From Thermosphaera aggregans DSM 11486 (GTDB lineage Archaea > Thermoproteota > Thermoprotei_A > Sulfolobales > Desulfurococcaceae): 64,000 nucleotides of DNA. Below are positions 44,201 through 53,525 of the stretch, piece by piece. Positions within the stretch are counted from its first letter, which is position 1; each line of letters opens with the position of its first letter. The stretch covers positions 620,001-684,000 of the forward strand of contig NC_014160.1 of assembly GCF_000092185.1 (NCBI RefSeq), written 5' to 3'. The notes beneath the pieces are model-generated. The model was not told the DNA's origin, searched no databases, and saw only the letters and a list, made by a program, of their open reading frames with translations. A program made the position numbers and the translations under genes.

Positions 44201-46957
44201 TTATTTCTTCCTAATTAAGGGTATTATAGACAACACTAATGTTACAACAACTAATCCTAGTGTCGCATACACTACCGTGCTGAGTGAGTCAATGGCACTC
44301 TTTAATGCTGACACATCATCGGGGGTAGCTGGGTTCTTCGGTAACGCGTCAACCTTGTTGCTTAATGCATGAATCTCGCTCCTCAATTCGCTAATAGCCC
44401 TCTGGAAAGCCTCTTGTTGCAGGTTTAATACTTCAGCATATGTTGCAGTGTCAACAGGTATCTTCGCAATCTCGGGTGTAGCAACTACGTCGGAGGTTAC
44501 TATTAACTGTAACGTGTACCTGGTACCATATTCTAATCCCGCTGTGAGCTCGGGATCCATAGTAATGGTAAAGTGGAAGTCGTCTATCTTCTGAGCGTCG
44601 GCAAACACCAATATTTGGCCTGAGGGATCTCTTAGCATGTACTTAAGGTAAAGCGGTGGAATACCGGATACCTCGACGCTTACAACCGCTTGTCTGCCGG
44701 GAACAATCTTATTGGGGATGTCAGAGGTTATTGTGACGCTTTTCACTGCTGATGGAGTGGGAGAGCCGAAGTACCAGTCGCCCGGCTTGAACGGATATGT
44801 CGGGTCCCTGAACGCCGTCATCTCTCCTTCATTCGCAACAGTGTCCATTTTGGTCAGCATGAATGGCCCATTGCTAATCCATGCTAGGTTGTAAGTGTTA
44901 ATCCAGTCTAGGTCAGCCTGTATCCTCTGGTTCCACTCCGTCATTGTCAATAATCCATCAGCATACTTGTTCGCTTTCTCGAGCACTGTAGCATTGTCGG
45001 TGTATGTTGCCAAAGTGTTTTTGACAAGATTTACATGGTCTGGGTAGACGAGGCTGAACGTCTGATACCCTGATCTCCTGTAAAGTACAAGATTTGTCTC
45101 ATTCCTCCTATCTAAGGCTAGCTCGAAGGTGGCTATATGAATCTCTATCGGGTTGATCGGAGTCACGGTTGCCCAGTAAGCTATATAGTTTTCGTCGAAG
45201 TGCCAGTAATCAACGTAAACCGTCATTCTCTTGTTTTGAACATCGAACTCCCAGCCTTTGATGGTGTCGAGCCATGGCTTGTTGTTGGAGACTATACGTG
45301 ATTCGAGCGTACTATAGTATTCATCGTAAACCAAATCGTAAATCATCGCGATATAGCCAATCACGTCCGCCATTGTTATTTCCCTGCCGTTGTGCCATTT
45401 AGCACCGATATACTTGCTCAGGTCGAACACCACTTTGCTGACAGCTGTGGTGCCTTCCGGCACGTTCTCCCATCTGTCGGTAGTTGCATTGAATATCTTA
45501 GCGGTCGTGGGCACGGTCATGTTGCCATCAGGTCCGGCTGTCAGCACAACATAGCTAACCCTGAACGGTATTGGGAGACCGTTGAATGGGTGAGTCCACA
45601 TGGACGGGTCGTAGGTGACTCTCTCCCAGTCAACGCTGTATACATCTGTGAAACCGCCCCAGACGTTCCACTCGCTAGTTGATGTCCAAACCCATAAGTG
45701 CCCGACATTCAAAGTCTTATCCTCTCTTCCCTCAACGTATGCTTCACGGAGGTTCCATATTCCACGTAAGCCAGCACCTAGGTCTTTGGTGAGTCCTTTA
45801 ACGTAGTCCCAAGCCACCCATGTGTCCAGCCTGGTTACCACCCATGCTCTGACCGACTCCTCGATACATAAGCGGGTACCATTCCTGTAGAGTTCGTTTC
45901 TCTCCTCCTTACTCTTATACTGCGCCTGGGAAATCTTTAGGGTTATATCATCTAATTCTGGGTGCTCATAATTCCAAAATGTCAGCTCCTGCCAACCAGG
46001 CATGTAGCCGAGCCAAGGTGCACAGTACTGGGCTATGGTTCCACTATCATACTTGTCAATGCCGCCCTTGCCCCAGCCCTCCGTGTACATGTGCCACTGG
46101 AATTCTGCCGGGTCTGTTCCATACAATATTGCGATAGCATCTGCAAACCTCATATATATCCTCTGAACATCGAAGCCTAACATGTCTAAGTCTGTAGCAA
46201 TCATGTTTCCAATATCGTATCTTTCATCCTCAATACGAATAATAAACTTCAGTGAAATAGGTTGCCCACCATACAGCCACTTGCCACCTGATTTGGTTGC
46301 GCCAACTTTCTGTAAGGCCTGTGTGATCAATTGGTCAGCGTAAGCGGGGTCATATCTAAACTCGTTCTGGGCAATTATGTCAGCAATCACCGAGTAGTCA
46401 GGGTCGAACTGGCTGAGGAAGGTGTACATTGGGACTGCATATCCTTTTAATATGGTATAGGCAGCTGTTTCCCTGTCGATTAAGTAGTTCATAGCAAACC
46501 TTACATCCCTGAAAGCGAACGGGTTGATACCTACTCCGGGCTTAGCTCCTAAGTATACGAAAGTGTGTGTCTCATTGTACTTTAACCCTACAATAGCATC
46601 CTTAGGTACTCCTATTCTGGCAGCAGCACCGATGGCATCGTATTTACCACTTAAGACTTCAACAGCTACTGGAGCAGGGTTCATTATAATGTCGATCAAG
46701 CCGGCAGGGGCTTGGTAGAACACCACGCCTTCAATCTCTTTTAATTGCTCGGCCTGGGCTGGTCTTAAGCTGTACATGTATAAATCTATTTCCTTGTTGG
46801 CGATTGCCGAGGGAACCTGTTCAATAGGCACTCTTTTCATTATTATTTTATCGCTTGCAGGCCCCTTTACCACTTCCTGTGCTTGTGTAGTAATGGGGAC
46901 ATATATTATCGATAATACTAGTAGTGGAATTAGTAAGGCCAATATTAACTTCTTCAT
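44201..46957 (-). CDS. Extracytoplasmic substrate-binding protein of peptide-type ABC transporter, membrane-tethered
   Basis: A 918-residue family 5 binding protein, almost twice the bacterial size. Residues 1-26 are a signal peptide. The family 5 lobes follow: FRDVRFAMNYLIDRETAA, SLKFIIRIEDERYDI, KWHNGREITMADVIGYI and MTVYVDYWHFDENYIAYW are typical. Near residues 745-850 an Ig-like domain follows (VKSVTITSDIPNKIVPGRQ), then a coiled coil (AFQRAISELRSEIHALSNKV) and a C-terminal helix plus IRKK tail, anchoring it to the membrane. ATG follows GGTTGGTG. First gene of the transporter operon. Peptides or oligosaccharides are possible substrates. Confidence 0.88.
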   Translation of the reverse strand: MKKLILALLIPLLVLSIIYVPITTQAQEVVKGPASDKIIMKRVPIEQVPSAIANKEIDLYMYSLRPAQAEQLKEIEGVVFYQAPAGLIDIIMNPAPVAVEVLSGKYDAIGAAARIGVPKDAIVGLKYNETHTFVYLGAKPGVGINPFAFRDVRFAMNYLIDRETAAYTILKGYAVPMYTFLSQFDPDYSVIADIIAQNEFRYDPAYADQLITQALQKVGATKSGGKWLYGGQPISLKFIIRIEDERYDIGNMIATDLDMLGFDVQRIYMRFADAIAILYGTDPAEFQWHMYTEGWGKGGIDKYDSGTIAQYCAPWLGYMPGWQELTFWNYEHPELDDITLKISQAQYKSKEERNELYRNGTRLCIEESVRAWVVTRLDTWVAWDYVKGLTKDLGAGLRGIWNLREAYVEGREDKTLNVGHLWVWTSTSEWNVWGGFTDVYSVDWERVTYDPSMWTHPFNGLPIPFRVSYVVLTAGPDGNMTVPTTAKIFNATTDRWENVPEGTTAVSKVVFDLSKYIGAKWHNGREITMADVIGYIAMIYDLVYDEYYSTLESRIVSNNKPWLDTIKGWEFDVQNKRMTVYVDYWHFDENYIAYWATVTPINPIEIHIATFELALDRRNETNLVLYRRSGYQTFSLVYPDHVNLVKNTLATYTDNATVLEKANKYADGLLTMTEWNQRIQADLDWINTYNLAWISNGPFMLTKMDTVANEGEMTAFRDPTYPFKPGDWYFGSPTPSAVKSVTITSDIPNKIVPGRQAVVSVEVSGIPPLYLKYMLRDPSGQILVFADAQKIDDFHFTITMDPELTAGLEYGTRYTLQLIVTSDVVATPEIAKIPVDTATYAEVLNLQQEAFQRAISELRSEIHALSNKVDALPKNPATPDDVSALKSAIDSLSTVVYATLGLVVVTLVLSIIPLIRKK

Positions 46958-46997
46958 ACGTTACACCAACCGATATAATGTTATAGGTGTTTCATAT

Positions 46998-47840
46998 TTA
47001 AATCTTTTTAGTCCCCCTTCTGACCCTCTCTATGTTTCTCATGCATGCTTGAAACATGTAAAAGAGGTCGCCAAGGATTAATGGGATAAGTATAAGGAGA
47101 ATATTGTCTCTCATAACAAAATACAAAACACCTTTCACGCAATTAAAGCATAGTAGATGGCTGATTAAGCAGAGCCTCGTGATTGATTCTATGCTGGTGA
47201 ATTCTCCTTCTAATACTCTAGTAGCGACCCCGTTAGGAGGAACTTCTATCTCCAATTGGCTGGAGGAATTGGATGACTTCCCCAACAACCTGACAATACC
47301 TGGCATTCCCCCATTATTCCTTACGGAGACAACAGGATCCTTCATTAGGAGTGTAAGTTCACCATAAGCATCCAAGTATCCGGGAGATTGAAACCTTAAC
47401 TCCCAAACTCCATCCCTCCTGTGGTACGCATAGGTTGGGATCGCTGGAAAATAGCCCGGCACACCTAAGTCCAGCCTCACATCAATGTTTGGTGAAAAAC
47501 TCGCACTCAGCCCCTCCAACGATTTCTCGAAGAGAGCGTCAGGCTCGTAAAATAACAGCCCCGGTATGTAGTCGATTGAGGCAACGGTCTCGTTCAACAC
47601 CCCGGGAATAATCAACCTGATGTCAACTTCCTGGGTTGACGGGGTTGTGAATAATGTAATGTTTACTAATCTAAACCTGAGAATCCATAGCGAGGGGTCG
47701 TAATTGATTTGGAAATCGTATCTACCTGTTTCAAATGAAGGCAGGTTATAGCTTATCCCTATTACGAGTAAGTTTAGTATTGCTAAAAGAAGTATTCTCC
47801 TTCTTAAAACCTTAAAACAGCGTTTCATTCCTACCCGCAT
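46998..47840 (-). CDS. Membrane protein with two terminal helices, unknown function
   Basis: A protein of about 280 residues with a membrane helix near the N terminus (RRRILLLAILNLLVIGISYN) and another near the C terminus (DNILLILIPLILGDLFYMFQ), leaving a beta-rich extracytoplasmic domain between. No family is recognised. The frame is open to 47900, but the TATA-like TTTTTAATAC near 47878-47887 lies inside that extension, so I choose ATG 47840, which has GAGGT eight bases upstream; ATG 47855 is also possible. It ends 41 bp from the start of the binding-protein gene and could be co-expressed with the transporter. Confidence 0.55.
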   Translation of the reverse strand: MRVGMKRCFKVLRRRILLLAILNLLVIGISYNLPSFETGRYDFQINYDPSLWILRFRLVNITLFTTPSTQEVDIRLIIPGVLNETVASIDYIPGLLFYEPDALFEKSLEGLSASFSPNIDVRLDLGVPGYFPAIPTYAYHRRDGVWELRFQSPGYLDAYGELTLLMKDPVVSVRNNGGMPGIVRLLGKSSNSSSQLEIEVPPNGVATRVLEGEFTSIESITRLCLISHLLCFNCVKGVLYFVMRDNILLILIPLILGDLFYMFQACMRNIERVRRGTKKI

Positions 47841-47934
47841 ACTCAAATACCTCATGAGATAATTGAAGTAGCTTAATGTATTAAAAACACTCTTTTTCAA
47901 TGCGAGAAATTCGTGTAGGAATATTCACCACAAG

Positions 47935-48088
47935 AGTGGCCTGCCTACGGACGTCCCTCCAGACTCGCCCGGGAACGTCCCTTACCGCCCTGCCCTAGGG
48001 TACCCGGTCATGCTGGATCATGCCTGGTGATCCAACTAAACCGGGTGTCTGGCGAGCAGGGCGTAGGCATTTGGCCCTCACTATCTAT
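47935..48088 (-). ncRNA. GC-rich structured RNA candidate, no known family
   Basis: This stretch is far richer in G and C than its AT-rich surroundings and holds nested, perfectly paired helices: TGCCTACG/CGTAGGCA (47942-47949 with 48062-48069), CGCCCTGC/GCAGGGCG (47986-47993 with 48056-48063), ACCCGGT/ACCGGGT (48002-48008 with 48040-48046) and TGGATCA/TGATCCA (48014-48020 with 48028-48034), plus a side hairpin GGACGT/ACGTCC (47949-47954 with 47975-47980). An outer GGCC pairing may extend the closing stem. A TATA box at 48104-48115 on the minus strand lies about 25 bp before the element, so I prefer the minus strand. No SRP, RNase P, 5S or tRNA signature is present. Confidence 0.6.
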
Positions 48089-48147: not shown

Positions 48148-48185
48148 TCTGTTATTCCTAAATAAGTCTTAGCATGGTGTGGTAT

Positions 48186-49436
48186 ATGCGTGTCTGCGGA
48201 TGGGTTTTGAGGAAGAAGGAGATAGGTAAAGTAGTGATCATAGAAGTAACCGGGTCTCGGTCGAAACCATACGTGCTAGTGTTTAAGGAGGAGCGTGAGC
48301 CTCAACTATACGCCGTCTCGAAAACTCTTGACGTTGGAACCGCACTGTGTTTTGAGGGCGAAGTAGCTACTGAGCAGAAGAGTAGGAGAGGTATTGAATA
48401 CACTGTGTCGAAGATTGAAATCTATTCGAAACCTGCTTCACCCTTGCCCGTGGAGGTTTCTGGAAAGGTTCCTTCACTACTTGACACGCGAATAAAGTAC
48501 AGGTGGCTCCTGCTGAGAAACCCTGCCGAGAAAGCCATCTTCAACATAAGGGAATCAGTGTTTCACGCTGCTCGAGAATACTTGAGAAGAAATGGGTTCC
48601 ACGAGGTTCAGACCCCAAAGATTGTTGCTGCCGGCGCAGAAGGAGGGGCTACGCTTTTCAAAGTAGAATACTTCGAGTATCAGGCCTACCTGAGCCAAAG
48701 CCCACAGCTTTACAAACAAATACTCATGAACGCCTATCCACGTGTTTACGAAATCACTCCATACTTCAGGGCTGAAAAGTTCAACACGCCAAGACATTTG
48801 AACGAGTCATGGGGGATAGACGTGGAACAGGGATTCATAAATGGTGTGGAGGATGTTTTAGAGACCCTGGAAAACCTTGTATCGTATATAATAAATTATG
48901 TGGTGGATAACAATAAGGAAGATCTCGAAACATTAGGGGTGAACCTCGAGAGGATCAACCCTCCGTTCAAGCGGCTTAAGTTCACAGAGGTCGTGGATAT
49001 TTTGAAAAGCGAGGGTATCGAGGTCTCCGAAAAAGAGGATCTCCCAGACCATGCTGAGAAGAAACTCGGGGAAATCATGAAGAGCAAGGGACATAGGCTT
49101 TACTTTATCACAGGCTTTCCCTGGAACGCCACAGGCTTCTACTACATGAGGGAGGATGGCTCATACACAAGGAAGTTTGACTTAGACTATGAAGGCCTTG
49201 AAATAGCCAGTGGCGGACAGAGGGAGCACAGGTACGATAAGCTTGTCGAGGCGTTGATCCTTAAAGGCTTGAACCCGGAGAGCTTCCAGTTTTACCTTGA
49301 ATCATTCAAGTATGGAATACCCCCACACGGAGGATTTGGATTAGGGGTTGAGAGATTGTTGATGAAAATGCTGAACCTTGAAAACGTGAGAGAAGCGATC
49401 CTCTTCGTTCGGGATAGGACTAGACTCGTTCCTTAA
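48186..49436 (+). CDS. aspS: Aspartyl-tRNA synthetase
   Basis: Class IIb synthetase of 417 residues. The N-terminal OB domain is short and divergent (CGWVLRKKEIGKVVIIEV). The core reads KIVAAGAEGGATLFKVEYF, motif 2 YFRAEKFNTPRHLNESW near residue 193, FDLDYEGLEIASGGQREH, the AspRS-type loop, and motif 3 GFGLGVERLLMKML near 383. A true AsnRS exists at 3695, so this enzyme may be the discriminating form, but that needs direct testing. ATG 48186 has GGTG six bases upstream; ATG 48174 would add four residues and overlaps that signal. Confidence 0.92.
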   Translation: MRVCGWVLRKKEIGKVVIIEVTGSRSKPYVLVFKEEREPQLYAVSKTLDVGTALCFEGEVATEQKSRRGIEYTVSKIEIYSKPASPLPVEVSGKVPSLLDTRIKYRWLLLRNPAEKAIFNIRESVFHAAREYLRRNGFHEVQTPKIVAAGAEGGATLFKVEYFEYQAYLSQSPQLYKQILMNAYPRVYEITPYFRAEKFNTPRHLNESWGIDVEQGFINGVEDVLETLENLVSYIINYVVDNNKEDLETLGVNLERINPPFKRLKFTEVVDILKSEGIEVSEKEDLPDHAEKKLGEIMKSKGHRLYFITGFPWNATGFYYMREDGSYTRKFDLDYEGLEIASGGQREHRYDKLVEALILKGLNPESFQFYLESFKYGIPPHGGFGLGVERLLMKMLNLENVREAILFVRDRTRLVP

Positions 49437-53425: not shown

Positions 53426-53525
53426 AGCCGCCGGCGGGATTTGAACCCGCGTCCACCGGCTTTCTCGACGGGCCTACTCAAAACGCTTACAAGGCCGGCG
53501 CTCCACCGGGCTGAGCTACGGCGGC
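53426..53525 (-). tRNA. tRNA-Thr (anticodon TGT) with 26-nt intron
   Basis: On the minus strand the acceptor stem pairs GCCGCCG with CGGCGGC. The D arm reads GCTC/GAGC, the anticodon stem CCGGC/GCCGG, and the T arm GCGGG-TTCAAAT-CCCGC. The anticodon loop is CTTGTA plus A38 after a 26-nt intron that begins AGCGTTTTGAG and sits between positions 37 and 38, the usual archaeal splice site. The anticodon TGT reads ACA. The discriminator base is T, as in many archaeal tRNA-Thr. CCA is not encoded. A TATA-like AT run lies upstream near 53551-53563. Mature length is 74 nt. Confidence 0.92.

Follow-up and report, generated by a model that had tools for sequence, protein, structure and literature searches.

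A conserved structured RNA with a double pseudoknot encoded near aspS in most genera of the Desulfurococcaceae

A short GC-rich block upstream of an aspS-like gene in the hyperthermophile Thermosphaera aggregans raises the question of whether it encodes an RNA and, if so, on which strand and of what kind. The window, by which we mean the whole 64,000-bp stretch of DNA that was analysed, covers positions 620001-684000 of the 1,316,595-bp single-contig genome. GC content reaches 63% per 100 bases in the block (47935-48088) against 32-40% in its flanks, in agreement with the GC-rich island in AT-rich surroundings described in the first-pass annotation. The bounds of the element, 48076-47936, were set by conservation, as three genomes of the genus agree within them and diverge in the flanks. 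Read on the minus strand, the element is 141 nt long, with a 5' end at 48076 (GGCC...) and a 3' end near 47936 (...GGCCAC), limits that are supported by full-length model matches. The minus-strand TATA box that had been placed about 25 bp away is indeed present as TTAATAAG at 48108-48101, some 25-32 bases upstream of the 5' end of the element. Of the 25 copies checked, nearly all have a TATA-like box ~31-38 bases ahead of the conserved 5' end, a spacing that fits a transcription start at 48076 or a few bases before it.

The minus strand of the element folds at -85.2 kcal/mol, compared with a mean of -61.6 kcal/mol for 200 dinucleotide shuffles, none of which was as good (z = -5.2). A comparable fold is available to the plus strand (z = -6.0) because the region is rich in inverted repeats, and folding alone therefore has no power to assign the RNA strand. 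The assignment was made from the base pairs and the promoter-like boxes: helices of a 25-sequence alignment read on the minus strand contain 92 G-U pairs as against 4 A-C mismatches, and since G-U pairs become A-C mismatches if the other strand is read, these counts together with the conserved TATA boxes place the RNA on the minus strand.

In its ground plan, a terminal helix consisting of P0, a three-base bulge and P1 closes a junction with a long arm (P2-P4-P5) and a hairpin (P6), all on the minus strand. The 5' strand of P0 (GGCC, 48073-48076) pairs with 47938-47941, and no sequence in the family is more constant than the corresponding GGCY...GGCYA. The purine-rich bulge (AAA, 48070-48072) sits on the 5' side between P0 and P1 and reads RRN in every homologue, including the diverged copy L116 discussed below. 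P1 (TGCCTAC, 48063-48069) pairs with 47942-47948, so that the 3' strands of P1 and P0 together occupy 47938-47948 and are followed by a conserved A; five of its seven pairs change on both sides between species. P2 (GCCCTGCTC, 48054-48062, with 47987-47995) and P4 (ACCCGGTT, 48039-48046, with 48002-48009) show such double changes at 10 of 10 model pairs and 6 of 8 pairs, respectively, and the 3' strands of both rest on this covariation. Hairpin P5 (48012-48036) pairs 48028-48036 with 48012-48020 around a loop at 48021-48027, and hairpin P6 (47949-47980) pairs 47972-47980 with 47949-47957 around a loop at 47958-47971; all nine pairs change on both sides in each. Every helix listed in the first-pass annotation thus exists on the minus strand, the one correction to the list being that the side hairpin has 9 bp rather than 6. 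Across species the RNA measures ~120-215 nt, and in some genera an extra hairpin stands between the long arm and P6.

DNA similarity searching recovered the element from two further genomes of the genus, at 92% and 84% identity and between the same aspS-like and membrane-protein genes, the DNA on either side being much less alike; beyond the genus it returned only noise (E 0.09 or weaker). When 30 loci upstream of aspS were read, most genera proved to have a GC-rich block that differs in sequence and shares the plan: GGCY at the 5' end, a purine-rich triplet, P1, the long arm, a hairpin, P1' and GGCYA at the 3' end. Minimum-energy folds of 18 single sequences mostly gave this plan, whole or largely, and the two copies of genus g10 (L036 and L040) fold differently when folded alone. 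Plain MAFFT alignment between genera displaced P2 by two columns, and the covariance model was therefore seeded with a hand-segmented, N-padded set. The resulting model, R1, identified one copy in each of 17 family genomes and none outside the family at E 0.01, added four more genomes in a further search, and scored three shortened relatives from genus g8, absent from its training, at E ~1e-4 in a small search. Model R2, built from 25 sequences, found the RNA in 22 genomes of 12 genera. With the g8 copies counted on the basis of their position and R1 score, 13 of the 16 family genera carry the RNA, one per genome and usually divergent beside aspS; structure-based searching thus delivered the relatives that the first-pass annotation had proposed to look for. 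A third model from all 36 matches was dropped as its set was contaminated by antisense matches.

The three g8 copies (L041, L044 and L045) are reduced to ~122 nt and keep P0, the bulge, P1, P2 and a short P6 without the long P6 loop or a clear P5, a pattern suggesting that the constant part of the RNA is its bulged terminal helix. No model match was found in genera g6, g11 and g13; the site beside aspS holds a tRNA in g6 and nothing in g13, and inspection of both genera beside the small basic protein gene described below gave a tRNA or nothing. Either the RNA is missing from part of the family itself, or the copies of these three genera lie beyond the reach of the model. Searches of the class and phylum gave no matches outside the family at E 0.1, which is weak evidence of absence since these strictly filtered runs also missed the g8 copies known by position. 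One weak match in another family (L116, E = 0.44) presents the same plan over 216 nt (z = -10.8) at an intergenic locus with a TATA-like box upstream, and an adjoining 66-aa ORF (L116:1289-1489) resembles the C-terminus of the small protein neighbouring the RNA elsewhere (35% over 34 residues). L116 is probably a true, very diverged relative. Two other weak model matches were rejected, L115 lying inside a coding gene and L117 reading as 23S rRNA. A search of all species genomes with the pattern GGCYAACCGCCYAC...GGCGGGCTA returned six Desulfurococcales/Staphylothermus matches and four bacterial ones, the latter looking like chance.

Between genera the sequence has been largely replaced and the pairing kept. 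Of the helix cells in the 25-sequence alignment, 96.6% pair; double-sided changes occur at 39 of 47 pairs (300 cells), compared with 15-20 pairs for slid versions of the pairing. The covariation score is 0.637 versus 0.06-0.13 slid, and none of 500 shuffles reached any of these observed values. As this alignment was fitted to the structure, its pair counts are inflated, and the shuffles ignore relatedness; the contrast is nonetheless large. A hand-segmented, gap-free set of eight sequences behaves similarly, with 98.5% of cells pairing and 36 of 53 pairs changing on both sides (5-10 when slid). Within the genus, two P2 pairs change on both sides in a MAFFT alignment (G-C to A-U and C-G to U-A), which with three sequences is suggestive only. 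The compensatory changes that the first-pass annotation had proposed to look for were found, and they occur in all major helices except the near-invariant P0. They bear directly on the reading that the block is no RNA gene, being a GC-rich chance structure or a palindromic element acting at the DNA level, as the inverted repeats and the good folds of both strands might suggest. That reading is contradicted by the excess of G-U over A-C on one strand, by the compensatory changes and by the near-constant TATA spacing, and we regard it as exceedingly improbable. The element is conserved and structured, has a defined strand and one copy per genome, and comes with a promoter-like box of its own, in keeping with the uncharacterised minus-strand RNA originally proposed; that it is an RNA gene is almost certain, and its transcription is predicted from these sequence features.

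The helices had been described as nested, a description that does not hold for the plan as a whole, as the two strands of the P2/P4 internal loop both pair with the loop of the side hairpin, P6. In pseudoknot pk1, the 5' side of the internal loop (CCAGAC, 48047-48052) pairs with the 3' part of the P6 loop (47959-47964); in pk2, the 3' side of the internal loop (CCC, 47998-48000) pairs with the 5' part of the P6 loop (47968-47970). The pk1 strands read CCAGAC/GUCUGG in the window and CCAGGC/GCCUGG, UCCCCGCA/UGCGGGGG or ACCCGG/CCGGGU in other genera, and two pk1 pairs show double changes in the hand-structured set of eight. For pk2, CCC/GGG in the window corresponds elsewhere to GCCCCC/GGGGGC, ACUCCA/UGGAGU, GGCCCA/UGGGCC or CAGCCCA/UGGGUUG; as it has just 3 bp in the window versus 4-7 bp in most other genera, pk2 in this species leans on its relatives. 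For each pseudoknot, loops were permuted between genera 20,000 times (one sequence per genus, 12 genera, with segments partly hand-picked and pk2 scored on the stretch of the loop 5' of pk1'), and the observed strength was never equalled. The g8 copies have a P6 loop too short to be arranged in this way. Where both pseudoknots are present, they are expected to hold the RNA in a compact tertiary fold.

Small ribozymes and riboswitches characteristically have double-pseudoknot folds, and the retention of the pseudoknots across 12 genera could be taken to mean that the RNA is catalytic or ligand-binding, with the double pseudoknot building an active site or metabolite pocket. We consider this unlikely: no invariant unpaired core of pocket or active-site size is present, the long P6 loop is gone from one genus (g8), and the genes downstream bear no relation to one another. 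Several loops and apparently independent transcription would also suit an antisense or guide RNA that base-pairs with a target through its loops. However, the exposed loops (the P5 loop and the P5 flanks) vary in sequence and length, and the conserved loop bases are engaged internally by pk1 and pk2, which makes a guide function a very improbable one.

The genes on either side of the RNA clarify its relation to its neighbours. Divergent from it lies the aspS-like gene (48174-49436, plus strand, 420 aa), which is outside the element and serves as a synteny marker. Downstream, and also outside the element, is a membrane-protein gene on the minus strand (46998-47840), listed as an ORF from a TTG start (46998-47900); the likelier start is an internal ATG, for instance that at 47840. 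The membrane protein is followed by a 918-aa solute-binding-like protein (44201-47900, minus strand, for the pair), and this pair is kept in the genus. One explanation for such an arrangement is that the RNA is a cis-acting leader of the downstream gene (a riboswitch, an attenuator or an autoregulatory leader that binds protein). It lies directly upstream of the membrane-protein gene on the same strand in the window, and the next gene encodes L35Ae in some genera. However, a separate TATA-like box for the membrane-protein gene lies near 47881-47889, between the RNA and the start, and no gene is constantly found downstream on the same strand across relatives: the RNA is followed by the membrane-protein gene in the window's genus, in many genera by a gene for a small basic protein, in some by that for L35Ae, and in others by a tRNA gene or an opposed gene, the main next ORF being on the opposite strand in G021 (L040) and G005 (L056). 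In G011 the RNA follows aspS rather than diverging from it. The varied downstream genes and the gene order in G011 argue against both a leader and control of aspS, and the change of downstream gene between genera indicates an independent gene rather than an mRNA leader, an alternative that we find quite implausible. The aspS gene is therefore merely a neighbour, a point that, like the double pseudoknot and the family-wide distribution, goes beyond the first reading of the locus.

The small basic protein is itself family-wide. It begins with a PIP-box-like segment (TLDKFF/ILDFL), ends in a conserved domain (RGFVNTTRxPVYxDW...CELQxRYG) and has no Pfam match; it may be a PCNA partner. Its gene lies downstream of the RNA at L041, L045, L050, L053, L074, L078 and other loci. 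It was rejected as a fixed partner of the RNA as its gene lies elsewhere in the window's genus and in g10; the G000 copy is at L102:1501-2022. Two further observations concern annotation. A tRNA gene at 53426-53525 (minus strand) has a ~28-base insert near the anticodon loop, probably an intron, and was found by Rfam and missed by ARAGORN. The contig end of G024 (L073:1-44) carries the sequencing-adapter-like agatgtgtataagagacag, an assembly artefact.

What the RNA does is suggested by which of its parts stay constant. Paired bases turn over freely and no unpaired stretch of seed length is conserved, whereas the GGCY/GGCYA terminal helix with its purine-rich bulge of three bases is near-constant, which argues for recognition by shape. 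Bulges of this type bend helices and often serve as sites for proteins. The explanation we prefer is therefore a protein-bound scaffold or decoy, ahead of a ribozyme or sensor, a diverged known RNA, a leader and an antisense RNA. Under this model a single-copy gene with its own promoter would make a trans-acting structural RNA that is recognised by its shape, with a protein most likely sitting on the bulged terminal helix and the RNA acting as scaffold or decoy of a ribonucleoprotein. We give about even chances to the RNA being trans-acting and structural and working as a protein-bound particle. The broader proposition, that it represents an undescribed class of trans-acting RNA present in one copy per genome across most Desulfurococcaceae, with a probable diverged copy in L116, and forming a stable double-pseudoknot particle with a core hyperthermophile function, appears reasonably likely. 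Beyond rRNA, tRNA, RNase P, SRP and guide RNAs, the RNA biology of the Thermoproteota is thin, and an RNA kept in single copy in 13 of 16 genera with intense compensatory change, containing a double pseudoknot and absent from Rfam, makes a strong candidate lineage-specific ribonucleoprotein. It also illustrates how fast sequence can be rewritten at very high temperature while shape is kept, such that DNA searching works only within a genus, and the covariance model provides a direct handle for annotation and experiments.

As a family the RNA is new. The comparison with Rfam that the first-pass annotation had recommended, made against Rfam 15, gave no match at gathering score for the element, the sole match being a meaningless eukaryotic one at E = 1.9; five homologues also lacked an Rfam match, and no paper describing the RNA was found in the open-licence literature. 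Archaeal RNAs can nevertheless diverge past Rfam models, so we considered whether the element is a very diverged H/ACA or C/D guide, RNase P/MRP-like, SRP-like or Y RNA, which we judge improbable on the following comparisons. Archaeal RNase P RNA (RF00373) is likewise stable and combines a terminal helix with long-range pseudoknots, and archaeal SRP RNA (RF01857) is likewise GC-rich and structured with a terminal helix. However, the genuine RNase P RNA and SRP RNA genes lie elsewhere in the genome (C1:1147990-1148302, 165.7 bits, and C1:1216453-1216734, 122.1 bits) and the element is matched by neither model, in line with the lack of SRP and RNase P signatures noted initially. With archaeal H/ACA guides the element shares a stable GC-rich hairpin form with internal loops, and in some relatives a possible kink-turn. 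H/ACA guides differ in having a single arm, whereas the element is a multi-arm junction whose main internal loop is paired internally by pk1 and pk2; its 3' ends read GGCYA followed by variable letters, with an ACA in some homologues only and not in the window. There is likewise no Rfam match to C/D sRNAs, and reading of the window's P4/P5 loop revealed no tandem GA. The P4/P5 internal loops of L047, L049, L050, L053, L056 and L081 are GA-rich and may be kink-turns (L7Ae sites), a point in favour of a diverged known RNA that is set against the absence of kink-turn GA pairs from the window's copy. Y RNAs, which bind Ro60, offer a likeness in their terminal helix with a constant bulge as probable protein site, but this identity was rejected as none of 40 family genomes has a Ro60/TROVE gene and there is no Rfam match. 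Closer in setting are the orphan GC-rich Hgc and Ssc RNAs of Methanocaldococcus and Pyrococcus, which were identified in the same way, as GC-rich structured islands outside protein genes of AT-rich hyperthermophile genomes; they belong to another lineage, the element is without an Rfam match, and we know of no double-pseudoknot architecture described for them. Double-pseudoknot small ribozymes and riboswitches, of which twister is an example, differ from the element in being smaller, in having a small invariant core and in their Rfam models, which leave it unmatched, but they share its central architectural feature, a hairpin loop that docks into an internal loop via base pairs.
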